Source: Synechococcus sp. UW140 (GTDB lineage Bacteria > Cyanobacteriota > Cyanobacteriia > PCC-6307 > Cyanobiaceae). From it: a DNA stretch of 64,000 nucleotides. A program made the translations under genes and the position numbers. Location of the stretch: NCBI RefSeq assembly GCF_900474295.1, contig NZ_UCOB01000007.1:1-64000 (forward strand), given 5' to 3'. Shown here one piece after another: positions 1 through 16,641 of this stretch. Positions within the stretch are counted from its first letter, which is position 1. Each line of letters opens with the position of its first letter. The notes below the pieces were generated by a model. It made no database searches. It was given only the letters and a program-made list of their open reading frames with translations, and had not been told where the DNA came from.

Positions 1-685
1 CATCGAATGAGACGACTTGCGCTGTTGCCGCTGTTGATCGCTTTGTCTGGCATCACGCCGGCGGCTGCCGATGTGGCGTCGTCGCGATCGGGGGGGCTAG
101 GCACCCGCATCAATGGAGCGCTGGGTGGGCGATGTAGCAGTGGTGTTTGCCGGATTGATGGGGGCAGTGCTGGCGGCGGCAACCGCTTTCATCGGTTGAG
201 TGAGTTCGACACCCGCGGAGCGATCCAAGGGGTGTCGATCGAGAGTGATGGCGTGCGCAATCTGGTGCTGGGGGTGACGGCAGCGGATGGGAGCTTTATC
301 GACAAGAGCGTGTCGCTGACATCGCCAGCCCATCTGTTTGTGCTCTCTCCCGGTGGCATTCAGTTGATGCCAGGGGCTTCGTTTCAGCAGATACCGCAGT
401 TGACCTTGAGCACAGCTTCGCAATTGCGTTTTGGCGGAGGGGTGTTCGATGTGTTCAGCACGCCGGCAACCGGCGTGGCTGTGTTGGGTGGTGATCCCCT
501 GCCTGGAGCGTTGGGATTGCTCCCTGGAGCCTTGGGGGAGAAACGTCCCTGGATCCGCATGGATGGGATCTCGATTGATGTGGATGAGGCGCTGTTGGTG
601 GATGCGCCCGGGGGCCGTATCGATGTGGAAGGAAGCCGGCTGTCGGTGAGCAATGCGTCTGGTGATGGCGGCACGCTCACGCTCA
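1..685 (+). repeat. Exact direct repeat, copy A (5' part of exoprotein gene 1)
   Basis: This block is base-for-base identical to 4401-5085, at an offset of 4400. It covers the six bases before the start codon and the first 226 codons of the first TPS exoprotein gene. Identity stops abruptly at base 686 (T here, C in the other copy). A second identical island at the same offset runs from about 751 to 803. The left edge of the window cuts the repeat, so it may extend further upstream. Confidence 0.97.
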
Positions 686-3600
686 TGGCAGACGATCTAG
701 TGATTGATGGAACATCGCAATTACTGGCCAAAGGATCTGAAGACGGCGGCCTGATTCAAGTGGGTGGCAGTTGGCAAAACAGTGATGCCTCGGTGCGCCA
801 GGCGACTACCACGCGTGTGGATGCTGGTGCCGTGATCGATGCATCAGCAACGGTGCATGGCGATGGTGGTGAGATTGTGGTTTGGAGTGATATTTCTGCC
901 CCTGATTCGATCACGGATGTGGCTGGTACGTTCCTTGCTAAAGCAGGACCCCAAGGTGGTGATGGTGGACGGATTGAGACATCGGGGGCGACATTGTCGC
1001 TCGCTCCGGACTTGAAGATTGATGCGTCTGCTTTGGATGGAGAAGCTGGTTTGTGGCTGCAAGATCCTTTTAATTATGTCATCGACTCACCTGAAGCAGG
1101 AACGATTGAGTCAAGCCTTAATGGGGGTACGAATGTAACGATTAGTACTGCAGTCAACGACCCTGCAGGTGGTTCGACAGGGAGTGGGGTTGGAAATATT
1201 AGTTTGAATCATCCGATCGAAAAGACATCAGGCTCTCCAGTGACCTTGACATTTTTGGCGGACAATGATGTTTATCTTTCGGGATCGATTGAATCGACCG
1301 GCGATGCTGATGCTCTGAATGTGGTGGCCAAGGCTGCGGGTCAAATTATCCTTGATGACGGTAAGGCGATTGAAACGAATGGTGGCGATATTGTGCTTTG
1401 GTCGAATACTGGCAATAAAGAGTCTGGATCGGGCCAGCACTTCATTCGTTTGAATCCAGGCTCCTCGTTGACTTCGGCGGGTGGCAAGATTGTTTTGGCA
1501 GGAGGGCTTGATACGAACTCTGATGGTGTTCCAGACGGATATGCGTATGTCGGTGATGTTGTCCGGACAGCAGGATCGACCTTTGCTGGAGACCCGCTGC
1601 AATCAGGTGTCAGTTTGGGCAGCGTGCGTAATCAAACTGGTGCACGGATCACAATCAGTTCCGGTGGCGGTGATGTGATCATGCGTGGTCGTTCGGGTGT
1701 GGCCCACACCCAGGCCGATGGTTTTGGCTCGCAGCGGGCTGTTGTAATTGATTCGGGTTCAGGCTCAATTCAGATTGAAGGTGATCAAGTAGCAACCGAC
1801 GGTGGAGTGGGGCTGAGATTTGGCAATATCGACTATCTCCCCGATGTTGCGATTACGAGTTCTAGTACATCATCCCCCGCGATCCAGATTATTGGTACGT
1901 CGGTGAGCGATCGAGGCGTTTGGTTGGGTGATGGATACGATGCAATAAATGTCGGGACTGTTTTATTGCAAAGTACGGCCAATAGTGGCGGTGGTATTAC
2001 ATTAGAAGGATCATCGTCGAAAACCACCGGGGATACCCCTGGAATAGATCTTGGCGGATCTGATTCGGGCAGTCAGAACTATCAATTTCTCTCTAATGCT
2101 GGCCCAATCATGTTGGTGAGTAAGCGCAACACGGCGAATTCTGCGATTAACATTAGTGCCAATAATATACAGTTAGCAAGCAGAACAACGGAGACGGCTG
2201 TTCAAGGTGTGAGTCCGATTGTTGGGTCCACATCGGTCGCCACAAGTTTTCAGGCAGATAAAAAGATTTCCTTCGGATCCGATGTGTCGGGGGCGGGAAC
2301 CGTGGAAATTCACCCCTACAGCTCAGGAAGAACGATTGGGGTGGAGTCGAGCTCTGATTTAACATTGGAAGGACTCGACAATCTGGCCAGTTCCTTTTCA
2401 AGTGTCACCGTCGGTGATTCAAATGTGAATGGGATTGTGTCCAATTCACCCATTGCTGTGAAGAGCGATGCGTTTTTTCACTCTGGTTCTGCAGGGCTGA
2501 ATTTCTCGGATACATTCACATCCAACGCTAATAATGTGTCCTTTCAGGTGGCGACGGATTCTTCTGTTGCTGCTCTCAGTCTCGGTAGTGGTTCATTGAC
2601 CAAGATTGGCTCTGGTCGCTTGAAGTTGACGGAAGCGAATACTTATTCGGGGGCAACCCATCTCAATGCTGGCAAGCTACAACTCTCCAATGCTTCAGCA
2701 CTTGGTTCCTCAAGTGAATTGAATATCGATGGAGGAACACTCCGCTTTTCTCAGGCTGCCTCAGTTCCCTCGGCGAGTCTCGCCAGTGGAGGTGGAACAT
2801 TTGAGGTTGATTCTGGGTTAACGATCAATTTCAGCTCTGTCGCGAGTGGCTCCGGTGCCTTCACGAAAACAGGTTTGGGAACACTGAATTTGAGCGGAAC
2901 GAATACCTATACAGGCGCAACGAATGTGAATGCAGGTAGCTTAAAAATCACTGGCAGTCTCGATGAAACTACTACTGTGACAGTCGGTTCTGGCGGGACG
3001 CTCAAGATGGGCATTGATGATGTTGTTGGTGCGATCGCTGGGGCCGGATCAATTGAATTAGGGGCTTATACCTTGGGAGTCGGTGCTAATGACTCATCAA
3101 CAACCTTTAGTGGTACGATTTCTGGCACTGGAGGGCTCACAAAATTCGGAACGGGAACTTTAACTCTTGCTGGTGATAATACTTATTCAGGCGCGAGTTT
3201 CGTTGAGGCGGGTACTTTGTCTGTTAGTGGGAGTTTGAGTGATGCGTCGGCGCTTACGATTGTTAGTGGCGCAACATATCAGTTGGCCAAGAGTGATACG
3301 GTGGGCTCTATTGCAGGCGAAGGCGCTATTGAATTAGGAGATAATACATTATCTGCAGGTGCAAATAATGCATCAACCTCTTTCGGTGGGGTCATTTCTG
3401 GTACTGGAAACTTCAGAAAAGTTGGTACAGGAACGCTTGTTCAGTCTGGTGATAATGATTTCACTGGATCAACATTTGTGGATGCGGGAACGTTAACCGT
3501 TACGGGTAAAGGTCCGACAACGGCAACCTGCGGTACCGGAGCGAGTTCGAATATCTGCTCTAAGTCAACAACAACTCCAACAACTCCAACAGACGTCGCA

Positions 3601-3897
3601 ACAGCAACAACCTCTACGACATCGAAATCCAAATCGAGATCGACGTCAAAAGTGACTGCCTTAGAGCCCTCATCGTCTTCCAGTCTTCTGATCGTTCTTC
3701 TGGATGCATACGAAGAGTTTGTTGATGTAGTTCTTGACGTGCCCAGTAAAATGATAGGTTCTCCGATCTTTTTTGTTGACGCGCCACAGGTCAACTCGAT
3801 CGAGGCATCGATTTCTGATTCGATTCGACTCTCTCCCGACTTGCAGGCCAGCCCTGCTCAAGGTGATCCTGAGGATTCGAAGCTGAAGCTTGAGTAG
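7..3897 (+). CDS. TPS-type filamentous haemagglutinin exoprotein with four autotransporter-type beta repeats
   Basis: A 1296-residue secreted protein. Residues 1-21 form a signal peptide (MRRLALLPLLIALSG then AAADV). Residues about 25-170 resemble the filamentous-haemagglutinin N-terminal (two-partner secretion) domain, with SPGGI in place of the usual NPNGI turn. The middle is a Ser/Thr/Gly-rich beta-helix passenger. Four autotransporter-associated beta-strand repeats (TK.G.GTL.LSG.NTY.G pattern) begin near residues 864, 952, 1044 and 1136, a period of 88-92. A Cys-containing linker (ATCGTGASSNIC) and a Thr/Lys/Ser-rich stretch lead to an unrecognised C-terminal segment of about 75 residues. 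Unlike its neighbour it has no CHAT domain. No TpsB transporter gene lies in the window; it could be upstream. Role in adhesion or surface display is inferred from family only. Confidence 0.85.
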   Translation: MRRLALLPLLIALSGITPAAADVASSRSGGLGTRINGALGGRCSSGVCRIDGGSAGGGNRFHRLSEFDTRGAIQGVSIESDGVRNLVLGVTAADGSFIDKSVSLTSPAHLFVLSPGGIQLMPGASFQQIPQLTLSTASQLRFGGGVFDVFSTPATGVAVLGGDPLPGALGLLPGALGEKRPWIRMDGISIDVDEALLVDAPGGRIDVEGSRLSVSNASGDGGTLTLMADDLVIDGTSQLLAKGSEDGGLIQVGGSWQNSDASVRQATTTRVDAGAVIDASATVHGDGGEIVVWSDISAPDSITDVAGTFLAKAGPQGGDGGRIETSGATLSLAPDLKIDASALDGEAGLWLQDPFNYVIDSPEAGTIESSLNGGTNVTISTAVNDPAGGSTGSGVGNISLNHPIEKTSGSPVTLTFLADNDVYLSGSIESTGDADALNVVAKAAGQIILDDGKAIETNGGDIVLWSNTGNKESGSGQHFIRLNPGSSLTSAGGKIVLAGGLDTNSDGVPDGYAYVGDVVRTAGSTFAGDPLQSGVSLGSVRNQTGARITISSGGGDVIMRGRSGVAHTQADGFGSQRAVVIDSGSGSIQIEGDQVATDGGVGLRFGNIDYLPDVAITSSSTSSPAIQIIGTSVSDRGVWLGDGYDAINVGTVLLQSTANSGGGITLEGSSSKTTGDTPGIDLGGSDSGSQNYQFLSNAGPIMLVSKRNTANSAINISANNIQLASRTTETAVQGVSPIVGSTSVATSFQADKKISFGSDVSGAGTVEIHPYSSGRTIGVESSSDLTLEGLDNLASSFSSVTVGDSNVNGIVSNSPIAVKSDAFFHSGSAGLNFSDTFTSNANNVSFQVATDSSVAALSLGSGSLTKIGSGRLKLTEANTYSGATHLNAGKLQLSNASALGSSSELNIDGGTLRFSQAASVPSASLASGGGTFEVDSGLTINFSSVASGSGAFTKTGLGTLNLSGTNTYTGATNVNAGSLKITGSLDETTTVTVGSGGTLKMGIDDVVGAIAGAGSIELGAYTLGVGANDSSTTFSGTISGTGGLTKFGTGTLTLAGDNTYSGASFVEAGTLSVSGSLSDASALTIVSGATYQLAKSDTVGSIAGEGAIELGDNTLSAGANNASTSFGGVISGTGNFRKVGTGTLVQSGDNDFTGSTFVDAGTLTVTGKGPTTATCGTGASSNICSKSTTTPTTPTDVATATTSTTSKSKSRSTSKVTALEPSSSSSLLIVLLDAYEEFVDVVLDVPSKMIGSPIFFVDAPQVNSIEASISDSIRLSPDLQASPAQGDPEDSKLKLE

Positions 3898-4275
3898 TCC
3901 TTCAAGATTTCTGCTTGGTTGTGGGCCTTTAATACCCCAATTTTATTGAAATTCTGTTGGCCTTGCTGAGTTGAAAATTTAGCCAAAAATGGCAGAACCT
4001 CTCGCGTGTCAGAGCTTGGTTGGTCGACCCAGGGACATTCTCTCGCAATAGCTGTTGCTCTGAGCTGGAACCTCTATTGGCTTGTTGATTCGCTCTCACT
4101 GCAATCGGTTGGCACCGTTTCTGCTTCCCATTCCTTGGTGCTGGGCCCAAAGGCCAGCCTGCTTTGCTTCATCACCACTGCCTCTCTCCGCTGAGCGCTG
4201 GTGTGGATAGTCGTTTGCTACCGGATTCGTCGGCCTGCGGTGACTGGCGAGTGGCGAGTGGGGACGGACCACCAG

Positions 4276-4322
4276 TTGCGCCAGCAGACGCAGCATTGAT
4301 CCGGCAGTTATCACTGGCGCAA
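4276..4322. promoter_or_regulatory. Inverted repeat upstream of the CHAT exoprotein gene
   Basis: TTGCGCCAG (4276-4284) and its exact reverse complement CTGGCGCAA (4314-4322) are separated by 29 bases and end 84 bases before the start codon of the CHAT exoprotein gene. The arms could be two half-sites for a dimeric regulator or a weak hairpin in the leader. No known operator is recognised. Confidence 0.35.
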
Positions 4323-4387
4323 ACTTTAAAGTTGACTGAGAAAAATTGACCTAGCGTTCCCAAGTAGCAATGCAACAGCTGGTTTGC

Positions 4388-4400: not shown

Positions 4401-5085
4401 CATCGAATGAGACGACTTGCGCTGTTGCCGCTGTTGATCGCTTTGTCTGGCATCACGCCGGCGGCTGCCGATGTGGCGTCGTCGCGATCGGGGGGGCTAG
4501 GCACCCGCATCAATGGAGCGCTGGGTGGGCGATGTAGCAGTGGTGTTTGCCGGATTGATGGGGGCAGTGCTGGCGGCGGCAACCGCTTTCATCGGTTGAG
4601 TGAGTTCGACACCCGCGGAGCGATCCAAGGGGTGTCGATCGAGAGTGATGGCGTGCGCAATCTGGTGCTGGGGGTGACGGCAGCGGATGGGAGCTTTATC
4701 GACAAGAGCGTGTCGCTGACATCGCCAGCCCATCTGTTTGTGCTCTCTCCCGGTGGCATTCAGTTGATGCCAGGGGCTTCGTTTCAGCAGATACCGCAGT
4801 TGACCTTGAGCACAGCTTCGCAATTGCGTTTTGGCGGAGGGGTGTTCGATGTGTTCAGCACGCCGGCAACCGGCGTGGCTGTGTTGGGTGGTGATCCCCT
4901 GCCTGGAGCGTTGGGATTGCTCCCTGGAGCCTTGGGGGAGAAACGTCCCTGGATCCGCATGGATGGGATCTCGATTGATGTGGATGAGGCGCTGTTGGTG
5001 GATGCGCCCGGGGGCCGTATCGATGTGGAAGGAAGCCGGCTGTCGGTGAGCAATGCGTCTGGTGATGGCGGCACGCTCACGCTCA
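4401..5085 (+). repeat. Exact direct repeat, copy B (5' part of CHAT exoprotein gene)
   Basis: Second copy of the 685-bp identical block found at 1-685. It contains the start codon, signal peptide and TPS secretion domain. Here the left boundary is visible and falls six bases before the ATG, as far as copy A can be compared. Synonymous positions are conserved too, so the match is recent or actively homogenised, not just protein-level selection. Confidence 0.97.
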
Positions 5086-8000
5086 CGGGTGAGCTGATCC
5101 GTGTGGGCGATGGATCGGAGCTGCTGGCGACGGGTGCTGAGAAGGGCGGACTGATTCAAGTGGGTGGCAGTTGGCAAAACAGTGATGCCTCGGTGCGCCA
5201 GGCCACGCAGACGTGGATTCAGAAGGGTGCTCTGGTGGATGCCTCATCGAGAGGAGATGGAGCCGGCGGCACGGTCGTGATCTGGAGTGATCTCAACAAC
5301 CTCGACGGTGGCACGGTGGTGGAAGGCTCACTGCTGGCCAGTGGAGGGCCCTTGGGCGGTGATGGCGGACGGATTGAAACCTCAGGTCCGTTCTTGTTGG
5401 CTAATCCCGAGAAGGTTGATGTGTCGTCGATGAACGGTCTTGCCGGCGAGTGGTTGCTTGACCCTTACAACATCACGATCGGTGCATCGAGTAGTGCTGA
5501 TATCTATCCCGATTATGAAGATGGTGGTCGTTTGTTTGAATCATCTCAAGGTTCTTCGACCGTCAGCGCTGCCTCTATTGAGCAGTATTTGGGGCAGGGT
5601 AATGTTCGCATTTTAACGGGATCTGGCAGTGCAAATAATGAAAATAATCTTATACTTGCACCTAATAGTGCTGAGGCAGAGGGCGGTAATATTGTTTGGC
5701 AATCTGGTTATGGCATTGATTATTCTGGTTATGATTCCAAGCTGACTTTGGATGCGGCTGGTTATATTCAACTGAATTCAAATATCACAACTGGCAGTGG
5801 AGGTCTGTCGCTTAAGGCGGCGTCTGGATATGTGCAGGGTGCTAAATCAGTCACGCTCAGGCTCGGGGGAGCGCTCGAGATTGAAACAGGTGATACAACG
5901 ATTGGCACCTCTGGTTTTACGTCCCCTTCGCTAGCGTCGACTTTTGTGGGTGCTGGCAACCTTGTTAAAACTGGGGCCGGGCGACTGATCCTGTCTGGGA
6001 ACAATTCAGGTTGGACTGGTGATGCTGAAGTGAAGGCTGGATCCTTGCGCATTATTGGTGCTAATGCCCTTGGCGATTCGAGTATGGCGACACGGGTTGA
6101 TTCTGGGGCCTCTTTGGAGATCAGCGGCGATATCAGCGTTGATGAGCCAATTACTCTTGCTGGAGGCACGTTAGTGAACTGGTCGGGTGATAATACTCTG
6201 GCCAATAAAGTTAAGCTGATTGGCAGTTCAACGATTGATCTGCGCCAAGACGGTCTTACTCTAAATCCCTCCAGTGGTAATGCATTGGCAGTAGATGTAG
6301 CGAATAGCGCATACAACTCAGATTTACTCATCATTGGTGATGGCAGTCTGGATGCGCGGGATCCGATCAATCTGAAAGATGGTCAAAGTTCAAAGACTTA
6401 TGGCGATCTTCGTCAAACAGGTAGCGGTGTTCTGCGTTTCCGCGATGCGATCTGGGCTGAAAAAGTGTCCTCCACGGGAGGAGGCACTCTTTGGATGGAT
6501 CAGGAGAGTGAATCGGAAGTGATTGAGGGATCAGGTAACTCGTCGATTTTTCTCGATAATGGATCAATCTTGCGTAGGGATGCTGATGAGACAATCCAGT
6601 CCGCAACTCTGGAACTTGGTTCTGGTGGTGGAGGGATCAGCGTTGGTGATGACTACACCTTGATTTGGGATGCAGAAATTACTGGCAGCGGCGATTTCAG
6701 TAAAGAGGGTGAAGGCACCCTGCGTTTTCCCGCCACAGCAGAGATCGATTACGAGGGAGACACGTTGGTCAAGGCCGGCAGGTTGGATGTGCTGTCCGCT
6801 TCGCCTGTGAAGGCCACTTGTAGTGGCACGGGTGCATCCAACCGCTGTCAGGCGACTGATACCGACAACGACGACAACGACAACGACAACGACGACAACG
6901 ACGACACGACGTCCGGAACAGAGACAGCACATGAGCCCACGCTTCAGGCTGTGCTGATCGAAGCTGTGGCTGATCTACCGGTGCTGCCACCTTCTCAGCA
7001 AACCGGGAGTCAAGCATCTGATCCACAGTCCGGCGAGGCAGGCGTGGCTGGTTCGTCTCTCGGCCAGCCACAGGGCAGCGACGCAAGCCTTGTCGTGGAT
7101 CTAGGTGGCACCAGCGATAGTTCCGACAGCAGTGTTGCAGCGACTGCGGCCCCATCTGCGAGAGGGGCCGTGCAGACCGTGACATCAGACCAGGCTGCGG
7201 ATCAGCTACTGACGACTGATCAGGCGGCCACGAGTCGGACTGCTGCACTGCTTGGGCTCGAGCAGGCGGAACAGGCCCTGCTTCCCCCTACACCGACTGT
7301 GAATGAACTGCAGACGGTGCTGCAGCAAGTGGAGAGTCAGCGCTTGGCTGCCAGCCCAGCCATATTGCAGGTGCGATTTACAACAGCGCCGGAGCAGCAG
7401 CAGGGGGCGGACGCTGGGTTTCTTGATCTCACTTTGATCAGTGCGAAAGCACCGGTTGAAGCACGTCGGGTGGAGGTCGATCGCAAACGCTTCGCTGGCT
7501 TGCTCAAGGCTCTTTACCGCCAACTGTCACGGCAGGAGCCGATGGCCGTGGATAACCCCGCATCGCCGACCCGCCAGCTGCATTCCCTGCTGGTCGCACC
7601 TCTTGATGAGGCTCTTCAGGCCCAGGGGATTCAGACGCTGCTCATCGCTGCCGATCAAGGCCTCCAAGCGGTGCCGTTCGCTGCTCTCAACGATGGCTCC
7701 GGCTATTTCGGTGATCGCTATGCCTTTGCGTTGACGCCGTCACTGGCGCTCACCCCCCTCTCCCCGGCAGGCGATGGTCCGCAAGGCCAGCTCGCTCTTG
7801 GAGCTTCGCAGTTTGATGGTCTTGCGCCGTTGCCGTTGGTGCCCCAGGAGCTGGAACGTATCGACGCCTCAACCGGTGCCGATCGTTATTTGAATAGCGA
7901 CTTCTCGCCCAAGGCTCTGCTGGATGGGGCCGCCGATCAGCGCTATGCCCGCGTTCATGTGGCCACCCATGCCGATTTCCGCTCGGGTGGTCCAGAGCGG

Positions 8001-8459
8001 TCCGTGCTCCACACTGGAACGGGTCCGATGTCGATGGCTCAGTTCGCGCGCCTACGCAAAGAGCGAAGCGATCAGCCCCTCGATTTGGTGGTGCTCAGCG
8101 CTTGCCGCACCCTCCTGGGCGACAAGGACAGTGAGCTTGGTTTCGCAGGACTGGCTTTGCAGGCTGGAGCACGGAGTGCCATCGGGACTCTTTGGTATGT
8201 CGATGATGTGGTGACTTCGGCATTCTTCGTGCAGTTCTATCGGCTGCTTGATCAGGGGGTGGCGAAGGCTGAAGCGTTGCAGCGCACGCGCCAATTGTTC
8301 TCGTCGGGTGTGGTCCGGCTCGTTGGTGATGAGGTGATCGGTGCTGGAGGTGCATCTCTCCTGAATGATCTCAGTACGTCTCAGCGTCGTCGTATTGCTT
8401 CCGGGGTGAGCAATCCCTTCTTTTGGGCTGGGATTGAATTAATTGGTTCACCGTGGTGA
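4407..8459 (+). CDS. TPS exoprotein with C-terminal CHAT (caspase-like) domain
   Basis: A 1350-residue secreted protein. The first 226 residues are identical to the neighbouring exoprotein: signal peptide plus haemagglutinin-type secretion domain. Autotransporter-type beta repeats occur near residues 519 and 764. A Cys-containing linker (ATCSGTGASNRC) is followed by an Asp/Asn tract (near 818-834) and a long Gln/Ser/Ala-rich linker. From about residue 1010 to the end is a CHAT domain with the catalytic pair visible: His1188 in RVHVATHADF and Cys1233 in LVVLSACRTLLGD, then GFAGLALQAGARSAIGTLW, typical of the family. CHAT domains are caspase-like proteases; haemagglutinin-CHAT fusions are known in cyanobacteria. 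Whether the CHAT part is exported or what it cleaves is not shown by the sequence. Confidence 0.88.
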   Translation: MRRLALLPLLIALSGITPAAADVASSRSGGLGTRINGALGGRCSSGVCRIDGGSAGGGNRFHRLSEFDTRGAIQGVSIESDGVRNLVLGVTAADGSFIDKSVSLTSPAHLFVLSPGGIQLMPGASFQQIPQLTLSTASQLRFGGGVFDVFSTPATGVAVLGGDPLPGALGLLPGALGEKRPWIRMDGISIDVDEALLVDAPGGRIDVEGSRLSVSNASGDGGTLTLTGELIRVGDGSELLATGAEKGGLIQVGGSWQNSDASVRQATQTWIQKGALVDASSRGDGAGGTVVIWSDLNNLDGGTVVEGSLLASGGPLGGDGGRIETSGPFLLANPEKVDVSSMNGLAGEWLLDPYNITIGASSSADIYPDYEDGGRLFESSQGSSTVSAASIEQYLGQGNVRILTGSGSANNENNLILAPNSAEAEGGNIVWQSGYGIDYSGYDSKLTLDAAGYIQLNSNITTGSGGLSLKAASGYVQGAKSVTLRLGGALEIETGDTTIGTSGFTSPSLASTFVGAGNLVKTGAGRLILSGNNSGWTGDAEVKAGSLRIIGANALGDSSMATRVDSGASLEISGDISVDEPITLAGGTLVNWSGDNTLANKVKLIGSSTIDLRQDGLTLNPSSGNALAVDVANSAYNSDLLIIGDGSLDARDPINLKDGQSSKTYGDLRQTGSGVLRFRDAIWAEKVSSTGGGTLWMDQESESEVIEGSGNSSIFLDNGSILRRDADETIQSATLELGSGGGGISVGDDYTLIWDAEITGSGDFSKEGEGTLRFPATAEIDYEGDTLVKAGRLDVLSASPVKATCSGTGASNRCQATDTDNDDNDNDNDDNDDTTSGTETAHEPTLQAVLIEAVADLPVLPPSQQTGSQASDPQSGEAGVAGSSLGQPQGSDASLVVDLGGTSDSSDSSVAATAAPSARGAVQTVTSDQAADQLLTTDQAATSRTAALLGLEQAEQALLPPTPTVNELQTVLQQVESQRLAASPAILQVRFTTAPEQQQGADAGFLDLTLISAKAPVEARRVEVDRKRFAGLLKALYRQLSRQEPMAVDNPASPTRQLHSLLVAPLDEALQAQGIQTLLIAADQGLQAVPFAALNDGSGYFGDRYAFALTPSLALTPLSPAGDGPQGQLALGASQFDGLAPLPLVPQELERIDASTGADRYLNSDFSPKALLDGAADQRYARVHVATHADFRSGGPERSVLHTGTGPMSMAQFARLRKERSDQPLDLVVLSACRTLLGDKDSELGFAGLALQAGARSAIGTLWYVDDVVTSAFFVQFYRLLDQGVAKAEALQRTRQLFSSGVVRLVGDEVIGAGGASLLNDLSTSQRRRIASGVSNPFFWAGIELIGSPW
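6858..6909 (+). repeat. Asp/Asn-coding simple repeat in the CHAT exoprotein
   Basis: Irregular tandem GACAAC/GACGAC units encode an Asp-Asn tract just after a Cys-containing linker. It separates the beta-helix passenger from the linker leading to the CHAT domain. The tract could bind divalent cations or act as a flexible spacer; slipped-strand length change is possible because the units are in-frame hexamers. Confidence 0.7.
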
Positions 8460-8493
8460 CACTTGGTTTCCGGCTGGTCTGCGGCCAGATTGC

Positions 8494-8509
8494 TGTGATC
8501 GAAATCACA
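8494..8509. promoter_or_regulatory. Consensus CRP-type (cAMP receptor protein) operator
   Basis: TGTGATCGAAATCACA matches the CRP consensus TGTGA-N6-TCACA exactly. It lies between the CHAT exoprotein gene and the DUF928-like gene, with its centre 96.5 bases before the preferred ATG at 8598. A second degenerate copy, TGTGA-N6-TCAAT, sits at 8516-8531, 22 bases (about two helical turns) further on. Cyanobacterial SYCRP1-type regulators are known to use this same consensus. Function here is inferred from sequence and position. Confidence 0.65.
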
Positions 8510-8597
8510 CCAATCTGTGACTGGTCTCAATCGCTTTGGTGTTGCAAGGCATCAAGCTGAATGCATTCATCCCCTCCGTGCAAAAGCACGGCGTTCG

Positions 8598-9242
8598 ATG
8601 GCACGCCCCCTTCCTTTCACCCTGCTGGCCACATCACTGATGAGTGTTGTGATGGTTGCTGCTTCCATGCCACAGCTGCATGCGGCTTCACGTAACGCCT
8701 TCCCTGGGCGACGCATCGGTGGAGGAACTCGGGGTGAGTGTGCCGCCCGGCCGCTTGTACATATGGTGCCTGCATCCAGTGTGTTTGCTCCTGGTGACTC
8801 GTCGTTGATTGCCTTACTGGAGGGTCCTTCTCCGGATCCACAGCCTCTGGAGGTGACCTTGCGTTCCGCAAGTGCAGATGGAAGCGTGGATCCAGCGGAG
8901 CCTCCGATGCTGCAACGGGAACTGCCTGCTGCTGTCAACCGCCTGGTGTTGATCACCATCCCTGCTGCCTCGAAGCCTTTGTTGTGGGAATCCTCTTATC
9001 GCTGTGGTGCTGAGAGTGGTGATGATGAATTTGGTTTCATTACTGCGTCGGCCCCGCCGGCCCTGAGCTTGTTGGTTCCAGAGGGGGGCGTGGAGGATCA
9101 GAGCATTCGCCAACAGCTCACTGCACTCAAGTCAGCCTGTGGAGGGACGACAGCGTTGTCGCGGTTGCAGGCAGCACTCAATCTTGGCGATGGGGTGATC
9201 GATGCCTCCTGGCCCCAAACCATCACGGTGCAGTGCTTCTGA
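8598..9242 (+). CDS. DUF928-like secreted protein
   Basis: About 214 residues from the preferred ATG at 8598, which gives a clean signal peptide (MARPLPFTLLATSLMSVVM.. ending near AASMPQLHAAS). An in-frame start 27 codons upstream at 8517 would spoil it and would overlap the degenerate CRP-like site. The mature N-terminus carries GRRIGGGTRGEC, the hallmark of cyanobacterial DUF928 proteins, followed by VHMVPASS. Four cysteines are visible. DUF928 genes often lie near CHAT, CHASE2 and TPS genes in cyanobacteria, as here. The molecular role is unknown. Its 3' end overlaps the convergent cyclase gene by 20 bases. Confidence 0.65.
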   Translation: MARPLPFTLLATSLMSVVMVAASMPQLHAASRNAFPGRRIGGGTRGECAARPLVHMVPASSVFAPGDSSLIALLEGPSPDPQPLEVTLRSASADGSVDPAEPPMLQRELPAAVNRLVLITIPAASKPLLWESSYRCGAESGDDEFGFITASAPPALSLLVPEGGVEDQSIRQQLTALKSACGGTTALSRLQAALNLGDGVIDASWPQTITVQCF

Positions 9243-11073
9243 GTTCAATCACTTCGAGCGGTTCTTGCCGACCCTTGACGCTGATGGCTCCCCAGGACTC
9301 GGCTTTGGTCTGATTCGGCAGATCATGGATGAGCGTCTGCGTTTCGGCCGAGAGCAGCACCCGCACAACGCCTTCGTGCCGTTCCTTCTGAACGCTTTCC
9401 AGGCGTGAGGCGCAGTTCACCGTGTCGCCGATCACGGCATATTCCAGTCGCTCACTGCTGCCCAGTGAGCCGGTCAGCACGGGCCCTGAATGGATGCCAA
9501 TCCGCATGCGCAGAGCTGGGCAACCTTCTTGTTTCAGTGTTGTGTTGAGGGCGGTGATCCTCTGCTGGATGTCGATCGCTGCGGCGACTGCTTGGGCAGC
9601 GTCCATCGCCTGACCGTTGGAAATCGGTGCCCCAAAGACGGCCAACATGCCGTCGCCGGTGAATTTATTCACCATGCCGTTTCTGCTGGTCACCGCATTA
9701 ACGCTGATGCTGATCCCGCGATTGAGCCAATGCATCAGAGCGGATGGTGTGAGCTGTTCGCTCACACCAGTGAAGTTGCAGGTATCGGTGAAGAGAACGG
9801 TGACGTATTGCTCACGTCCCGCAAAGCGTCCGTCTTTGATCAGATCTTCTCGGTGATCCCAAAGTTGTTGTGCCACTGCAGGTGAACTGGTCTGACCAAG
9901 CAGGCGTCGCATGTCCTGCTGATGGCGCTGACTCTGCACGCCACGTCGCAGGATGCCGCTACCGCCCATCAGCACCAAGCCCGTGAGGGGCATGGTCACT
10001 CCGATCCAGATGCCTTCCAACGACAACACGAACACGCTTCCTGAGAGCAGGGCCGCCGCGACTGACAGCAGTAGGACGCTGCGGCGGATCCGTTGCGGTC
10101 GCTCGGCAATTAGCACTCCCAGCAGCATCATGGCTAGCAGCACAAGCAGCCTTTGCCAGCCGGAGGCGGCGCTGATCTGCGGTGCTTGGCGCTGCAGCAG
10201 CCGCTGCAGTGCTTCGAGCCGCTGGCCATGCAGCTCCACACCGGGTACCTCAAAGAACTGCGAGCTGTGGTCGAAGCGGCTGTGGGGAATTTCGAATAGA
10301 TCGCGTAGGGAACGGGCCACGGTGCCAATCAACACAACCCTGCCGCGGATCATCTCCTCTGCCACGACGTTCTCCAGCACATCCCGTAGTTCCAGGCTGG
10401 GATAACGGCCGGGAGGATAGATCGGCAGCATGGTTTGGTAACCCGCGGCATCAAGGCCCTGATAGCCACCGGACTGTTCCCCTAGCCAGGTCTGATCAGC
10501 GAATTGCTCGAGTTGTTGATCGAGCTGTCGGTTGTTCTGCGCTGTTTCGAGTAAGCGGAGGGGAAGGGAGTGGAGCGCCTCGTCCTGCCCGCCAACATGC
10601 ATGAGATCGCGTCGAACCACGCGATCGGCATCCATGACAAGGTCATTGAACGCCTGTTGTTGCGGGGGTGTTCCCGGGATGGCGGCGATGCCATCCACCT
10701 CATTGCGGATCGAGATCAGTCGAGGATTGCGCTTGATCTCTGCCTGGAGGCAGGGCTTGGCCTGGTCGCGATAGAGGTCGAGGCCGATGGCAGCTGCTCC
10801 GAGCGCATCAAGCCGTTGCACCACGGTGCAGAGGAGGTTGTCATCGAGCGGCCAGTCATAGCTGCTGAGATCGGTTTCGCTGATTCCAACAAGGGTGATT
10901 GGCCATGGCAGGTCTTCGGCGCCGCTGGCGCTGCTTCGATGGCGCAGGCTTAGGGCGAGGTCATAGACCAGCAGGTTGGCTGTTTCCACTACGGGTGACT
11001 GGTGCAGTGCCAATAGCAGGGTTGAGGCCAACAGGTAGGGAAATCCCCGGCGTAAGGGTCGCAGCCAGTTCAT
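9223..11073 (-). CDS. CHASE2-domain class III adenylate/guanylate cyclase
   Basis: A 616-residue membrane cyclase. An N-terminal membrane segment is followed by a CHASE2 extracytoplasmic sensor domain (about residues 30-290; VGISETDLSSYDWP, GAAAIGLDLYRD), then three closely spaced membrane helices (about 305-375) and a cytoplasmic class III cyclase domain (about 420-600). Catalytic features are present: LFTDTCNFTG (metal Asp), NKFTGDGMLAVFG (metal Asp, purine-binding Lys) and YAVIGDTVNCASRLES (Asn and Arg). Thr in GDT suits a class IIIb, usually cAMP-forming, enzyme, but substrate is not proven. The ATG at 11073 overlaps the upstream channel stop as ATGA, so it is preferred to a GTG three codons earlier. 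Third gene of a likely speA-channel-cyclase operon. Confidence 0.9.
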   Translation of the reverse strand: MNWLRPLRRGFPYLLASTLLLALHQSPVVETANLLVYDLALSLRHRSSASGAEDLPWPITLVGISETDLSSYDWPLDDNLLCTVVQRLDALGAAAIGLDLYRDQAKPCLQAEIKRNPRLISIRNEVDGIAAIPGTPPQQQAFNDLVMDADRVVRRDLMHVGGQDEALHSLPLRLLETAQNNRQLDQQLEQFADQTWLGEQSGGYQGLDAAGYQTMLPIYPPGRYPSLELRDVLENVVAEEMIRGRVVLIGTVARSLRDLFEIPHSRFDHSSQFFEVPGVELHGQRLEALQRLLQRQAPQISAASGWQRLLVLLAMMLLGVLIAERPQRIRRSVLLLSVAAALLSGSVFVLSLEGIWIGVTMPLTGLVLMGGSGILRRGVQSQRHQQDMRRLLGQTSSPAVAQQLWDHREDLIKDGRFAGREQYVTVLFTDTCNFTGVSEQLTPSALMHWLNRGISISVNAVTSRNGMVNKFTGDGMLAVFGAPISNGQAMDAAQAVAAAIDIQQRITALNTTLKQEGCPALRMRIGIHSGPVLTGSLGSSERLEYAVIGDTVNCASRLESVQKERHEGVVRVLLSAETQTLIHDLPNQTKAESWGAISVKGRQEPLEVIELRSTAP

Positions 11074-12563
11074 TTCGGCCACAGATCCTGACCGGAGAGC
11101 CTGAAGAGGCGTTGCATGCGCGAGATCAGGGCAAGTCGCCTGCTTTCGGCTCGGTTTTCGCTGATGGCTTTGAGTTGCTCACGCCGGCTCGCGATGATCG
11201 TGCCCATCGTTTCGAGAATTTCCGGCTGTTCCTCCAACAGAGGCAGCAGGTGCTTGCGTTCAATTTCAATCAGCACACATTCGTCTTTGCACACCACGCT
11301 GGCGGCACGGGCTTCACCTGTGCACAGTGCCATCTCTCCAAAAATGTCTGCCGCTTCCAGACTGGCGATCCGTTGTCCAGGCAGGCCACTGGACGGGTTG
11401 CTCCCGGTGGCTTGGAACACCTCCAAAGTGCCGCTGACCACGATGTAAAGGCTGTCACCACGTTCTCTTTGGCGCACAACCGTTTCCCCAGGCGCGAAGC
11501 TTTGGCATGTGGCGCTTTCCGCCAGGGTGATCAGTTGGTTTTGACTCAAATGGCCGAAGATTTCCGTGGAGGCCAGCAGTCGCTGTTTCTCAATGAGGTT
11601 GACGTCGAGTGAAGGTAGACGTGCTGGGCTCGGTTGCGTGCGGATGTCGCGGATCGGATAGGGAATCGACTGATCGATGCGGTGGAGTGCGTACCAGATC
11701 TGTTCGAGCAGGTCGCTTTTGAGGGGTTGCAGTTCAAGGGCTGAGCTTTGCCAGGTGAGCAACCGATAGGTGATAGAGCTATCCGCGAAGGCTGAGACCC
11801 ATACTTTGGGGGTGGGATGACGCAGCACCTTGCGGTTGTGTTGCAGGGTGCGATGCAGCAATTGGATGGCCTGCCGTGGTGGTAGGCCGTAGTCGAGCCC
11901 CAGATCGATCATCTGTCCCACTGGCTCGTCTGGTTTAAAACGGCGCAGCCCCTCCATCATGATGCGGCTGTTCGGAACCACTGTGACGGAGCCGTCGAGC
12001 ACCCGGATCCGCGTGGTCATCAGCCGTAGGGAGGTGACGACCCCTCGGGTGAATCCCAAATCGATCCAGTCGCCCTCCTCGAATGGCGAGTCGACTTGAA
12101 GGGAAATACCTGCGAACAGATTCTTGAGGGTTTCCTGGGCTGCTAGGCCCAGCACGGCGGTGACGACTGCGGATGTGGCGGCCAGACCCACCAGATTGAC
12201 CCGGAAATCGCGGTGAATCACCACCAGGGTGACCGTGGTGATGATTGCCAGGGTGATCAGATCACGCAGGATCTTTGCTGTCGGTTTCCACCAGCCCAGT
12301 TCTGCGGGCAGTTGCAGGATCGCCCAGCTCAGGAGGCGAATGATGCTGAAAGCCCACAGCAGGGTGATGGCCGTGGCCAGTGATCCCACCAGCACGGGTA
12401 GGCCGCCATAGCTCACGATCCCTCCTAACAACGTCAGCAACGGGATGGCGACGGCCGCAATCAACGGCATTCGCAACGGAGGAGGCGAGAGCTGTTGGAG
12501 TTTGCAAATCCGATGCAGGCCAAGCAGCGCAAGAATGGCGAGGAGGCTGAGAACCAGGGTCAT
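11070..12563 (-). CDS. MscS-family channel with C-terminal cyclic-nucleotide-binding domain (bCNG type)
   Basis: A 497-residue inner-membrane channel. The first 170 or so residues form several transmembrane helices, the last being the pore-lining helix with an Ala/Gly-rich face (TSAVVTAVLGLAAQETLKN). The MscS beta domain follows (DWIDLGFTRGVV, VPNSRIM). A cyclic-nucleotide-binding domain spans about residues 335-450; its phosphate-binding cassette reads FGEMALCTGEARAASVV with the conserved Glu and Arg. This architecture matches the bacterial cyclic-nucleotide-gated (bCNG) branch of MscS proteins, in which the ligand gates a weakly or non-mechanosensitive channel. It starts 6 bases after speA and its stop overlaps the cyclase start by 4 bases, which suggests coupled synthesis of sensor and messenger enzyme. 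Confidence 0.9.
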   Translation of the reverse strand: MTLVLSLLAILALLGLHRICKLQQLSPPPLRMPLIAAVAIPLLTLLGGIVSYGGLPVLVGSLATAITLLWAFSIIRLLSWAILQLPAELGWWKPTAKILRDLITLAIITTVTLVVIHRDFRVNLVGLAATSAVVTAVLGLAAQETLKNLFAGISLQVDSPFEEGDWIDLGFTRGVVTSLRLMTTRIRVLDGSVTVVPNSRIMMEGLRRFKPDEPVGQMIDLGLDYGLPPRQAIQLLHRTLQHNRKVLRHPTPKVWVSAFADSSITYRLLTWQSSALELQPLKSDLLEQIWYALHRIDQSIPYPIRDIRTQPSPARLPSLDVNLIEKQRLLASTEIFGHLSQNQLITLAESATCQSFAPGETVVRQRERGDSLYIVVSGTLEVFQATGSNPSSGLPGQRIASLEAADIFGEMALCTGEARAASVVCKDECVLIEIERKHLLPLLEEQPEILETMGTIIASRREQLKAISENRAESRRLALISRMQRLFRLSGQDLWPK

Positions 12564-12569
12564 GGCGGA

Positions 12570-14549
12570 TCAGCTCTGCAGGTAGGTGCTCTGGCGCAGG
12601 CTGCTTTCGAGGTGATCCATCAGGCGTCGTGCCTCGGCAATCTTGAGCTGGTTGGAGCGGATCGACTGCTCACTGGCGACGCGTAGGCGCTCTAGTAACG
12701 ATTCCGGGTTGTGTTCCATAGCCGTGAGCACCTCCGCATTCGTGTCGCCGCGCACGACGTGGTCGACTTGGTAGTTCCCGCCGGGGGCTAGGCGGATGTG
12801 TACGGCATCGGTGGTGCCGAAGAGGTTGTGCAGGTTTCCCATCACTTCCTGATAGGCCCCTGCCAGAAACATTCCAATCAGGTACGGCTGCTCCGGTTGC
12901 AGAGGGTGGAGTTCCAGCAGTGGTTTGCTGCGGCCATCGCCGATAAAGCGGTTGAGGCGACCGTCCGAGTCGCAGGTGAGATCGGCGAAATGGCCGAGTT
13001 CAGTGGGCTTTTCCCCGAGCCGGTGGAGTGGCATCAGGGGGAAGAGCTGCTGGATCGCCCAGGTGTCTGGGGCGGAGCGGAAGATGGACAGATTGGCGTA
13101 GTAGGTCTGGGCGAGTACAGCCGGCAGCGACTGCAATTCCTCCGGCAGGGTGTTGATCGATGGCAACCGGTCCAGAAGAGCCCTGGCACAGGCCCAGGTG
13201 AGTTGTTCGGCGAGGCTGCGGTCAGTGAGGCTGAGGTAGCCGAGCCGGAAGGCGGCAAGGGCATCATCCTTGAATTTGCGTGCGTCATTCCAGGCTTCCT
13301 GGAGGCGCGAGACATCAGCGCTGCCGTCGTTGGCGAGGCCGTTGATGCCATCGAGTGTGTCGCGCAGATTGCGCACGATGAGTGGTTCCTCCTCCCTCTC
13401 AGCAGGGGTCTCCTGAGGCAGTCCACCGGTGCCGAGCACGTTGAAGACGAGCACTGAAAAATGACTGGCGATTGCTCGGCCGCTTTCGCTTACCAGGGTC
13501 GGTACGACCACTCCATGGGGCTCGCAACCCTCTTGCACCGTGGCCACCACATCGTTCGCGTAGTTCTGGAGTGAGTAATTGGTTGAGGCCGCAGTGGCTG
13601 TGCGGCTGCCGTCGTAGTCGATGCCCAGGCCTCCGCCTACGTCGAGGTAGCCCATCGGTGCCCCGAGCTTGTGCAGCTCCACATAGATACGCGACGCCTC
13701 CTGCAGGGCATCTTTGACGACGGCAATATCGTTGATCTGACTGCCCACGTGGAAGTGCAGCAGACGCAGTTCATTCAGCAGGCCTGCCTCCCGTAGTGCT
13801 TCCACGGTGGAAAGGATCTCTGGCACGGGCAGCCCAAACTTCGCCTTTTCTCCCACGGAGCTGCCCCAGCGACCCGTGCTGCGGCTGGAGAGCCGGGCGC
13901 GGATGCCGATCAGGGGTGCGGCCCCAAGCTCTCGGCTGGCATCGATGATCCGTTGCACCTCATCGGCCTGCTCGATCACCACCACCGGTCGCCTGCCAAG
14001 GCGCCTGGCCAGGATGGCCGTTTCGATATATCGCTGATCCTTGTAGCCATTGCAGATCAGCAGGGCTTCTGGATCGTCGATCAGGGAGAGAGCAATCAGC
14101 AGCTCTGCCTTGCTGCCGGCCTCAAGGCCGAAGTGCCAGCGTTTGCCACAGCTCACCAGCTCTTCCACCACGTGGCGTTGCTGGTTGCATTTCACTGGGA
14201 ATACACCTTGATAACGGCCGCAGTAGCCGTAACGGGTGATCGCCCGTTCGAAAGCGGCATGCAGGCTTTCAATTCGGTCTTCCAGGATGTCGTCGAAACG
14301 AATCAGCAACGGCAGGTTTAGGTTGCGTCCTTGCAGACCCTGTACCAACTCGATCAAGTCGAGGCTGCCGCCCCGTTCGCCTCGAGGCTGCACACTCACA
14401 TGGCCGCGCAGATTGATCGAAAAGTAGGGATCTCCCCAGCGCTCCAGGCCATAGAGCTCCGCACTGTCCTGCACGGTCCAGGCTGTGGTCATTGGCTCGA
14501 CGTTGGAGCTCGACTCACTGCCCGGTGGGTTGGGGTCGGCGAGCACCAT
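12570..14549 (-). CDS. speA: Biosynthetic arginine decarboxylase
   Basis: About 659 residues from the ATG at 14549. PLP-dependent enzyme converting arginine to agmatine, the first step of putrescine/spermidine synthesis. The PLP lysine motif FPVKCNQQRHVVEEL, LDVGGGLGIDYDGSRT and the substrate-site region SGRAIASHF are all present, and length fits the SpeA family (about 630-660). A further in-frame ATG at 14492 (MTTAWTVQDS) is an alternative start; the frame open upstream to 14639 has no family similarity. Divergent from ndk and first in a tight three-gene run with the channel and cyclase. Confidence 0.93.
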   Translation of the reverse strand: MVLADPNPPGSESSSNVEPMTTAWTVQDSAELYGLERWGDPYFSINLRGHVSVQPRGERGGSLDLIELVQGLQGRNLNLPLLIRFDDILEDRIESLHAAFERAITRYGYCGRYQGVFPVKCNQQRHVVEELVSCGKRWHFGLEAGSKAELLIALSLIDDPEALLICNGYKDQRYIETAILARRLGRRPVVVIEQADEVQRIIDASRELGAAPLIGIRARLSSRSTGRWGSSVGEKAKFGLPVPEILSTVEALREAGLLNELRLLHFHVGSQINDIAVVKDALQEASRIYVELHKLGAPMGYLDVGGGLGIDYDGSRTATAASTNYSLQNYANDVVATVQEGCEPHGVVVPTLVSESGRAIASHFSVLVFNVLGTGGLPQETPAEREEEPLIVRNLRDTLDGINGLANDGSADVSRLQEAWNDARKFKDDALAAFRLGYLSLTDRSLAEQLTWACARALLDRLPSINTLPEELQSLPAVLAQTYYANLSIFRSAPDTWAIQQLFPLMPLHRLGEKPTELGHFADLTCDSDGRLNRFIGDGRSKPLLELHPLQPEQPYLIGMFLAGAYQEVMGNLHNLFGTTDAVHIRLAPGGNYQVDHVVRGDTNAEVLTAMEHNPESLLERLRVASEQSIRSNQLKIAEARRLMDHLESSLRQSTYLQS

Positions 14550-14689
14550 GCGATTGGAAAGCACTGGGGATATTGAGGCAAATCTAAGGAGGGTGATTCC
14601 GTCAGGCAGAAATGCGTCGGTGCAGCAGTTGCTTGCCAAGGGGCAGCTTCAGAACGGAACATGGGCGGTTCTGTCTGACTGGTTTCTTC

Positions 14690-15148
14690 ATGGCCACCGA
14701 ACGCACGTTCATCGCCATCAAGCCCGATGGTGTCCAGCGCGGGCTGGTGGGCGAGATCCTTGGCCGCTTTGAGCGCAAGGGTTTCAAGCTGGTGGGCCTG
14801 AAGCAGATCACTCCCAGCCGGGCACTGGCTGAGCAGCACTACGGCGTTCACAAGGAGCGGCCTTTCTTTGCCGGTCTGGTCGACTTCATCACGTCCGGCC
14901 CTGTGGTGGCCATGGTGTGGGAAGGCGACGGTGTGATCGCCAGCGCCCGCAAGCTGATCGGTGCTACCAAGCCCCTAGAGGCTGAACCCGGCACCATTCG
15001 TGGTGATCTAGCCGTGAACATTGGTCGCAACGTGATCCATGGTTCTGATGCTGCCGAAACCGCTCAGTTCGAAATCGGCCTCTGGTTCCAGCCTTCTGAG
15101 TTGAACGAATGGACTCCCTCCGATCAGGGCTGGCGCGTCGAAGGCTGA
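14690..15148 (+). CDS. ndk: Nucleoside diphosphate kinase
   Basis: A 152-residue enzyme that equilibrates NTPs and dNDPs using ATP and a phospho-histidine intermediate. [18 protein letters not shown] begins the protein; the active-site histidine is in [12 protein letters not shown]. Length is normal. The start at 14690 is chosen because an upstream in-frame extension of 26 codons does not resemble the family. A hairpin terminator follows. Confidence 0.97.
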
Positions 15149-15207: not shown

Positions 15208-16641
15208 TTGAATGCTGAATCGCTGCTGTTGTTGCAGGCCCTCGACGGAGCGGTAGATCAGGCATTTGTGGATGTCCAGCCCTGTACCTTTGCTCCCGGA
15301 GAATGCCTGGTACAGGAAGGCGAGGCAGTTGATGGCTTGCTGCTGATTTCGTCCGGTGTGGTGCAGGCCCAATGGGCCGATCTGGTGGATTTCCAGGGGC
15401 CGCTATTGGGCCCAGGCAGCGTGCTCGGTGACATCTCCTATCTGCTCGGCGGTGTGGCGCGGGCCAGTGTGATTGCCCTGGAGCCTGTCGATGCTCTGCG
15501 CTTGTCCTGCCAGGGTCTCGACACCTTGATGGAGAAAGATTCTGCCCAGGGGCAGAGGCTCTTTCGAGCTCTGGCGGCCATCAATGCCCAGCGTTTGTTG
15601 CTTCAGACCCACTCTCAAATGCGCGATGGGGTGGCGGGCCACGGGGCTGCCTCGTTGATGTCTGAACCTTTGGTGGCGGCCGTGCAGCGCTTCAAGCAAA
15701 GTGCAGCCGCGGTGGAGGTGGATCTACGCCGCAGTAGTCCCGATCCATTGATGAGAAGGGATTTGATGACGGCCTTCGACACCTTGGTGCGCCTGACCGG
15801 CAGCCTGTTCCCGCCAGTCTCGGGAGAGTCTCCGGCTCCTGATAGTCCTGCTCTTCAGGCGTTGCGCCTTGAACTGCTGCCCTATCTGCTGCTGACTCGC
15901 TCTGCAGAACGGATGTACCGCAAGCCGAGGGGGTATGCGGGGGATTTCCTCACGATTGCCTGGATGTATGCCGATGAGCCGGGTGGAGCAGGGGAACTGG
16001 GCACCCTGCTGGACCGATGCTTTCTCAATCAGCCTGCAGCGCGGGCTGTGCGCAACCGGCGCGGGTTGTTGCGTGAGGAGTTGCAGCGCGCTCTGACTCT
16101 CACCGATCAGAGGCCCCTACGGGTGACAAGCCTGGCCTGTGGACCGGCAGCTGAGGTGTTCGACATCCTCTTGCAAGATCCTGATTTGGCTGCCCAAGTG
16201 CGTTTCACCCTGGTGGATGTGGATCAGCAGGCCCTGGAGTACGTCCATGAGCGGCTGAGGCGTGAGGGGCTGGAGTCGGTGGTGCGCTTGGAACGCCGCA
16301 ACCTGCTGTATCTCTGTATTGGCCGTCAGCAGCTGGAGCTGGAACCCCAGCACCTGATCTATTCCATCGGCTTGATTGATTACTTCGATGATCGAATTGT
16401 CACGCGTTTGCAGACCTGGATGCGTGGCTGCCTGGCCCCAGGAGGGCGCTCGATCCTGGGCAATTTCCACACCAGCAATCCCACGCGCGGATTAATGGAT
16501 CATCTGCTCGATTGGCGACTCATCCATCGGGATGAAGGCGACATGGTGCGGCTGGCGGAGGCGGCTGGTTTCGCACCTGGGTCCACACGGTGTCGGTTTG
16601 AAGCGGCGGGAGTGAATTTGTTTTCGATTTCGACCCGGTAA
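15208..16641 (+). CDS. Cyclic-nucleotide-binding domain fused to class I SAM methyltransferase
   Basis: A 477-residue protein. Residues about 10-130 form a CNB/Crp-type jelly roll (FAPGECLVQEGEAVDGLLLI, GSVLGDISYLLGG), with a phosphate-binding cassette less canonical than in the channel. After an alpha-helical linker, residues about 275-460 form a Rossmann methyltransferase (RVTSLACGPAAEVFDIL for SAM binding, FTLVDVDQQAL acidic motif II). The methyltransferase part resembles proteins annotated as 3-hydroxypalmitate methyl ester (extracellular factor) biosynthesis enzymes. The substrate here is unknown. The TTG start at 15208 lies in the T-run of the ndk terminator, so the true start may be slightly downstream. 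It sits beside the cyclase/channel genes, which suggests regulation by cyclic nucleotide. Confidence 0.75.
   Translation: MNAESLLLLQALDGAVDQAFVDVQPCTFAPGECLVQEGEAVDGLLLISSGVVQAQWADLVDFQGPLLGPGSVLGDISYLLGGVARASVIALEPVDALRLSCQGLDTLMEKDSAQGQRLFRALAAINAQRLLLQTHSQMRDGVAGHGAASLMSEPLVAAVQRFKQSAAAVEVDLRRSSPDPLMRRDLMTAFDTLVRLTGSLFPPVSGESPAPDSPALQALRLELLPYLLLTRSAERMYRKPRGYAGDFLTIAWMYADEPGGAGELGTLLDRCFLNQPAARAVRNRRGLLREELQRALTLTDQRPLRVTSLACGPAAEVFDILLQDPDLAAQVRFTLVDVDQQALEYVHERLRREGLESVVRLERRNLLYLCIGRQQLELEPQHLIYSIGLIDYFDDRIVTRLQTWMRGCLAPGGRSILGNFHTSNPTRGLMDHLLDWRLIHRDEGDMVRLAEAAGFAPGSTRCRFEAAGVNLFSISTR

Follow-up and report, generated by a model that had tools for sequence, protein, structure and literature searches.

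A CHASE2 cyclase gene linked to the gene of a cyclic-nucleotide-binding MscS-type channel in picocyanobacteria: a candidate cAMP surface-sensing locus

We know of no natural source of the messenger for MscS channels that carry cyclic-nucleotide-binding domains. A gene for such a channel lies directly beside the gene for a CHASE2 class III nucleotide cyclase in the window, as we call the whole stretch of DNA analyzed here, 64,000 nucleotides of Synechococcus sp. UW140 (contig NZ_UCOB01000007.1, positions 1 to 64,000, forward strand). The channel has what we take to be the same domain order as bCNG channels such as Ss-bCNGa of Synechocystis, an MscS pore followed by a cyclic-nucleotide domain. 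It differs from them in that its gene often adjoins a cyclase gene.

The cyclase resembles Cya2 of Synechocystis PCC 6803 (PMC5995499) in its CHASE2 domain, predicted membrane segments and class III catalytic domain; unlike Cya2, whose base-recognition residue is Glu, it carries Lys there and is predicted to use ATP. The available portion of a second report describes three CHASE2 cyclases of S. meliloti, CyaD1, CyaD2 and CyaK, which answer to a protein by way of the outer-membrane barrel NsrA and signal via the Crp-family regulator Clr (PMC13001267). The present locus shares with that pathway the CHASE2 cyclase and the putative Crp-family output, and an outer-membrane feed is suggested here by analogy only. 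In contrast to S. meliloti, the outer side is represented by a two-partner-secretion (TPS) system and by X8517, a secreted protein of an undescribed family, and an ion channel is a possible extra output. The gene inventory is not new: the neighborhood is listed as the genomic-island module Syn_GI122 of marine Synechococcus and Cyanobium, where its common membership was published (Dore et al. 2020, PMC7522525). The available text of that account, supplements aside, makes no mention of CHASE2, X8517, the TPS pairing, a CRP-type site, start/stop coupling, a partner swap or a block deletion, and within the literature searched, again supplements aside, the specific circuit was not found described.

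We read the locus, at a probability of roughly 55%, as the signaling part of a picocyanobacterial surface-sensing island that uses cyclic AMP (cAMP). A cue from outside the cytoplasm would act on the CHASE2 domain and switch the cyclase on; envelope partners with genes in the locus (X8517 and/or the surface system of TpsB and the CHAT-domain exoprotein TpsA-CHAT) probably present this cue. The cAMP produced would bind the C-terminal domain of the neighboring channel and change its gating; it would also activate a Crp-family regulator with a site before X8517, feeding back on the envelope side. The strength of this proposal lies in a cyclase that may naturally serve a bCNG-type channel and in an undescribed, near-constant secreted partner; its weakness is that we infer every functional step.

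The open reading frames and Pfam domains confirmed the position and content of the cyclase and channel genes given in the original prediction, and the window sequence bore out the ATGA overlap of the channel stop with the cyclase start (Table 1). A GTG codon 9 nt further upstream provides an alternative cyclase start (ORF 9223-11082, minus strand, 619 aa). The PF05226 match in the cyclase is the sole one at E 0.001 or below in its own genome. Hydrophobic segments follow the CHASE2 region at residues 300-375, while an N-terminal segment falls below the threshold used and a weak segment at residues 80-98 lies above it. Searched against PDB sequences, the channel matched MscS chains (E 5.4e-23) and a protein kinase A (PKA) regulatory subunit (E 3.9e-17). 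Its phosphate-binding cassette reads FGEM...RAAS and contains Glu410 and Arg419; the intact Glu/Arg cassette claimed for this protein is thus present, and it is near-invariant in relatives, with Glu in 61 and Arg in all 62 channel frames (taken from loci picked around cyclases or channels, one gene, in L066, giving two frames). By its MscS pore and beta domain and its C-terminal cyclic-nucleotide domain with the Glu/Arg cassette, the channel is a putative member of the bCNG family.

Table 1. Coordinates of the features of the cyclase-channel locus in the window.
Feature	Position	Strand	Basis and remarks
CHASE2 class III nucleotide cyclase	9223..11073	-	616 aa from ATG; Pfam CHASE2 E 1.5e-43, Guanylate_cyc E 1.1e-22, both above cut-off
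CHASE2 extracytoplasmic sensor region	10111..11019	-	PF05226 match
Cyclase catalytic domain	9262..9816	-	PF00211 match
MscS-type channel with C-terminal cyclic-nucleotide-binding domain	11070..12563	-	497 aa; Pfam MS_channel_2nd E 1.2e-14, MS_channel_3rd E 7.7e-9, cNMP_binding E 4.3e-18, all above cut-off
Channel cyclic-nucleotide-binding domain (Glu410, Arg419)	11229..11504	-	PF00027 match; residue conservation
Channel stop and cyclase start sharing ATGA	11070..11073	-	Stop TGA 11072-11070, cyclase ATG 11073-11071; junction comparison
X8517, secreted protein of undescribed family	8598..9242	+	Convergent with cyclase, 20-nt overlap at the 3' ends; Cys conserved at four positions (alignment)
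CRP-type palindrome TGTGATCGAAATCACA	8494..8509	.	88 nt upstream of X8517 ATG; same place in relatives
Two-partner-secretion exoprotein with C-terminal CHAT domain	4407..8459	+	Pfam CHAT E 6.2e-50; profile, fold, motifs
Tandem paralogue of the exoprotein, without CHAT match	7..3897	+	N-terminus 78% identical; Pfam PATR only, four PATR stretches
TpsB (ShlB/FhaC-like) gene remnant, flanked by the two exoprotein genes	4159..4350	-	45% identity to TpsB residues 1-62
speA, arginine decarboxylase	12570..14639	-	Pfam; directly upstream of channel

The gene pair proved to be conserved across picocyanobacteria. Three hundred Cyanobiaceae genomes, drawn evenly, were searched with both proteins and the fetched loci were annotated with profiles. 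Cyclase loci were fetched where a match reached 38% identity along most of the protein, and also for partial matches; genus labels were assigned by hand from the search listings. Among the resulting 71 orthologue loci from 69 genomes, the channel gene lies within 8 kb of the cyclase in 49, covering 14 of 18 Cyanobiaceae genera (the counts leave out L005-L009, L005 repeating L010, and take the second cyclase of G005 from L087 rather than L018). For loci whose contig reaches 8 kb either way, the figure is 24 of 32. Three gene orders occur among the 49 loci, with the channel upstream on the same strand (27), convergent (12) or downstream on the same strand (10). Counted by coordinate from the channel side (98 search rows at 33% identity or more), 34 of the 98 channel genes have a cyclase orthologue no more than 2.5 kb away, compared with 0.18 expected under random placement in 2.9 Mb, uncorrected for genome kinship. 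For an entered CHASE2-type cyclase at a distance of up to 12 kb, the count is at least 61 of the 98, compared with 1.3 expected for the same rows. The other CHASE2-type cyclases were 61 rows entered from among the matches listed, some listed rows being left out, and all eight of those scanned carry CHASE2.

Outside Cyanobiaceae, no close pair was found in a phylum sample of 244 genomes, in which the channel was matched in 38 genomes beyond the family (E 1e-25) and the cyclase in 29 (E 1e-60). Fifteen carried both genes, 12 on different contigs and three on the same contig at least 0.5 Mb apart; these figures were counted by eye, and some channel matches are pore-only, hence no count of true bCNG genes is given. 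In this sampling, the cyclase-channel link is a picocyanobacterial trait. Plasmid-borne channel matches were three distant Azospirillum records.

Translational coupling of the two genes, the next element of the original prediction, is suggested by recurring junctions of the coupling type, though not as a general feature. Start and stop codons overlap in 19 of 22 close same-strand pairs, seven as ATGA (one of which reads ATGATG) and 12 as TGATG, and three pairs have no overlap (the junctions of L019 and L088 were counted from the junction bases, the L088 cyclase being fragmentary). Because the channel is convergent in 12 loci and downstream in 10, coupling of this kind is not to be taken as general. 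The occurrence of two overlap types in different genera suggests selection for closeness rather than the persistence of one frozen sequence.

The channel and cyclase trees conflict. A well-supported branch sets the 12 convergent-order channels apart, at a great distance from the other channels. Their cyclases, together with one relative, nest in a 19-row clade (Shimodaira-Hasegawa-like approximate likelihood-ratio test, 100) that also holds four cyclases with ordinary channels and two with no channel nearby. Forcing those four ordinary channels together with the 12 was rejected (approximately unbiased (AU) test, p = 7.5e-5). In the simplest reading, one cyclase lineage seems to have exchanged its channel for a deeply divergent one. 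The trees are of a quick type with long branches flagged, and the AU test groups were named after the trees were inspected; the cyclase tree leaves out three short cyclases, and the L019 entry in it, an open frame that is too long, has a spuriously long branch. An independent origin of the linkage in two channel clades was considered and is not claimed, the tree being unrooted and the groups meeting at one node. Together, the start/stop overlaps and the change of channel beside the same cyclase line point to this cyclase as a possible natural source of the messenger, and the physiological gating of such channels becomes testable in one strain.

The most constant neighbor of the cyclase is X8517, found within 8 kb in 68 of the 71 loci and in 18 of 18 genera. 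Because X8517 is near 68 cyclases and the channel near 49, the idea that cyclase and channel form a complete signal-to-ion-flux module was not sustained. Of the 68 loci, 64 have X8517 and the cyclase in convergent orientation, and in 54 of those 64 the 3' ends overlap. Its predicted secretion is based on a signal-like N-terminal segment, recognized without a signal-peptide program, and its alignment comprises 54 of 64 prepared sequences. In a Pfam scan of 54 members, five families matched one member each at E 0.016 or worse and the window member matched none; the latter likewise had no match in NCBIfam. DUF928, which we had presumed to be a possible family, was rejected after the scan gave it no support. 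The predicted structure is a beta-sandwich (predicted local distance difference test score 85), a confident but uninformative model. It gave no match at E 0.001 or below against PDB and viral fold libraries, and VIA-align returned Z scores of at most 6.8, to Ig/FnIII-like sandwiches over residues 43-165, which may reflect a common arrangement.

After X8517, the next most frequent cyclase neighbors are TpsB (50 of 71 loci) and the CHAT exoprotein (45 of 71). In the window, the CHAT domain carries the motifs HVATH from residue 1184 and LSACRT from residue 1230. Both the His and the Cys motif are kept in 35 of 43 CHAT frames, the other eight lacking one of them under patterns that may be too narrow. 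By profile and fold, the N-terminus of the exoprotein is a TPS secretion domain: a profile built from 14 sequences matched EtpA (E 1.3e-39) and HMW1 (E 6.2e-12), and the window member gave a fold match. Counting against this assignment, the Pfam TPS model matched four of the 14 members, the window member not among them. TpsB of a relative (L010) matched ShlB at E 1.1e-15, with POTRA_2 just below its cut-off, and the intact TpsB gene of the window's own genome (C1:82457-84211) is 92% identical to it. This gene and that of the Crp-like regulator stand where contig C1 ends; the final bases of C1 enter the start of the exoprotein gene opening contig C17, that of the window; the gene order therefore fits that of the relatives. 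The tandem exoprotein repeat probably broke the assembly, since contig C1 ends in the same gene start.

A natural deletion marks the cyclase, X8517, CHAT and TpsB genes as a cassette. In two genomes (G265 and G277), this block is absent between the channel and the regulator, which sit 30 and 20 nt apart, and a different CHASE2 cyclase lies about 1 kb from them.

The palindrome before X8517, TGTGATCGAAATCACA, is the only perfect CRP-type match in the window, where 0.07 would be expected, and this type of motif agrees with published cyanobacterial CRP sites. A perfect site near X8517 or CHAT occurs in nine of the 71 loci (0.07 expected with uniform bases), and all nine genomes carry a Crp-like regulator homologue (E 1e-40 or better). 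Site and regulator occur together in nine loci, the regulator without the site in 30, and neither in 32 (one-sided Fisher's test, p = 0.003, uncorrected for kinship). The regulator itself was found in 37 of the 69 cyclase genomes compared with 23 of 231 others. As judged from its sequence, it belongs to the Crp family but is not CRP proper. In the window's own genome, palindromes occur at 14 places versus two for a reversed control. A scan of 8400-14700 for sigma-70 promoters found none. At G000:C3:240, C13:240, C23:240 and C14:297, at near-equal distances from the contig starts, the sequence TGTGAGCTTGCTCACA was observed (one base different in C14), probably a repeat element.

Several of these results weigh against the circuit that we propose. 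No channel lies within 8 kb of 22 of the 71 cyclase orthologues; in eight of these cases the contig extends 8 kb or more either way, and in the others it is cut shorter. Genomes G265 and G277, which belong to the window's genus, retain channel and regulator without this cyclase, which counts against exclusive coupling. On the transcriptional side, 30 of the 39 loci in regulator-bearing genomes have no perfect site, and the regulator gene lies inside the fetched stretch for only five of the nine site-bearing loci. Several of the 14 palindromes in the own genome are copies of one sequence repeated close to contig starts and are probably not Crp sites. The Crp-like protein, scored in the relative L010 (the own copy is 96% identical), reaches 68.5 bits against an NCBIfam CRP cut-off of 266. 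Finally, cAMP need not be local, because the own genome shows another two matches to cyclase domains and another 11 to cyclic-nucleotide domains.

A possible, though doubtful, alternative is that the cyclase belongs to the surface system of X8517, TpsA-CHAT, TpsB and the Crp-like regulator and works via transcription, the channel being an optional island passenger that draws on the general cAMP pool. The wider genus distribution of X8517 than of the channel (18 versus 14 of 18), the retention of the channel beside another CHASE2 cyclase where the block is deleted, and the 37 of 98 channel genes with no entered cyclase within 12 kb among the matches listed would all fit this account, which finds it hard to explain why start and stop codons overlap in 19 of 22 close pairs or why a divergent channel stands beside one cyclase lineage. 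That the linkage has no function, cell-surface and signaling genes simply gathering at a genomic-island hot spot beside speA and ndk, is decidedly unlikely. The available part of the report by Dore et al. does record the neighborhood as an island module (PMC7522525), many loci are flanked by speA or ndk, and the channel is missing near the 22 cyclases noted above; against this, proximity is far above the chance expectation, it persists while gene order varies, and the overlaps recur with two junction types. The original prediction had placed the pair in an osmotic or envelope-stress response tied to polyamine synthesis, a fit that was not borne out and that we regard as very unlikely. The MscS pore of the channel speaks for it, as does the position of speA, which ends 6 nt before the channel ATG in the window (12570 to 12563) and shares 4 nt with the cyclase start (gap -3), with no channel between, in eight loci (L027, L030, L031, L036, L069, L070, L073 and L074). 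Yet speA lies within 8 kb of only 37 of the 71 cyclases, nothing was found linking either polyamines or osmotic stress to the circuit, and no osmolyte gene recurred among the neighbor clusters inspected, not every one of which was identified. Most bCNG channels tested are not known to respond more than weakly, if at all, to tension.

The identity of the messenger was weighed on the active-site residues of 72 cyclase frames, which represent 71 genes, one being covered by two overlapping loci. The second metal-binding Asp, the base-recognition Lys and the transition-state Asn and Arg are each present in 72 of 72 frames, and the first metal-binding Asp in 71, the remaining frame having a gap. The second base-recognition position, located by its spacing to the Asn, a spacing known from the mammalian cyclase, is Ala in 63 frames, Gly in seven, Thr in one and Ser in one. 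The Asp or Thr sought as second adenine-recognition residue was thus not found as a feature of the family, a further point against the proposed circuit, and substrate choice rests on the Lys because the second residue is Ala rather than Asp or Thr. In the alignment with solved cyclases, the second position is Thr in P. aeruginosa CyaB and Gly in Cya2, and the Lys aligns with the Glu of Cya2, a CHASE2 guanylate cyclase. The Ala and the place of Cya2 among the closest solved relatives would suit a guanylate cyclase making cyclic GMP (cGMP), a reading that we find extremely unlikely. Lys stands in place of Glu in every frame, and the site preceding X8517 is of the CRP type. The R-A-A-S of the channel cassette, which we take to resemble PKA sites, also argues against cGMP. 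According to the available part of the Cya2 study, the E488K variant is an ATP-specific adenylate cyclase (PMC5995499), and its second position is Gly. The cyclase is therefore likely, but not certain, to be an adenylate cyclase, with cAMP favored over cGMP.

Extending the proposed cAMP surface-sensing reading, X8517 might serve as a secreted ligand or co-receptor of CHASE2 that reports the state of TpsA-CHAT as a surface protease or adhesin (contact, attack or damage), with cAMP opening the coupled channel for fast ion or solute flux and resetting X8517 expression via the Crp-like regulator. Such a closed outside-in loop is unlikely in its entirety; if true, it would amount to a bacterial circuit for surface sensing that has its own dedicated cyclase and an ion channel as output. 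Two more direct predictions follow from the near-constant secreted neighbor and from the CRP-type site.

Other cyclic-nucleotide domains and CHASE2 cyclases were observed in the window and in the fetched loci. A second type of CHASE2 cyclase (L045-L049, L015 and L018) is paired with possibly FecR-like secreted proteins, often beside the channel; Pfam gave no match for one such protein (L047:7309-8022). Beside CHASE2 cyclases in L015 (17080-17973) and L028 (from 10009), a cyclic-nucleotide domain is fused to an MGS-like domain, as assigned by Pfam for L015 and by membership in the same cluster for L028. Upstream of the cyclase in L026 and L034 are type I secretion-like ABC-transporter genes (one ABC gene recognized by Pfam, and the HlyD-like gene between named from sequence only), followed by a small cyclic-nucleotide-domain relative before the cyclase. 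A short frame with a cyclic-nucleotide domain stands at 16728-17180 of the window; the search showed a TGA inside it, and it may be a decayed gene. At 15208-16641 of the window, adjoining ndk, a cyclic-nucleotide-binding domain is fused to a Methyltransf_20-type methyltransferase, and relatives of this fusion lie near ndk in L010, L011 and L027.

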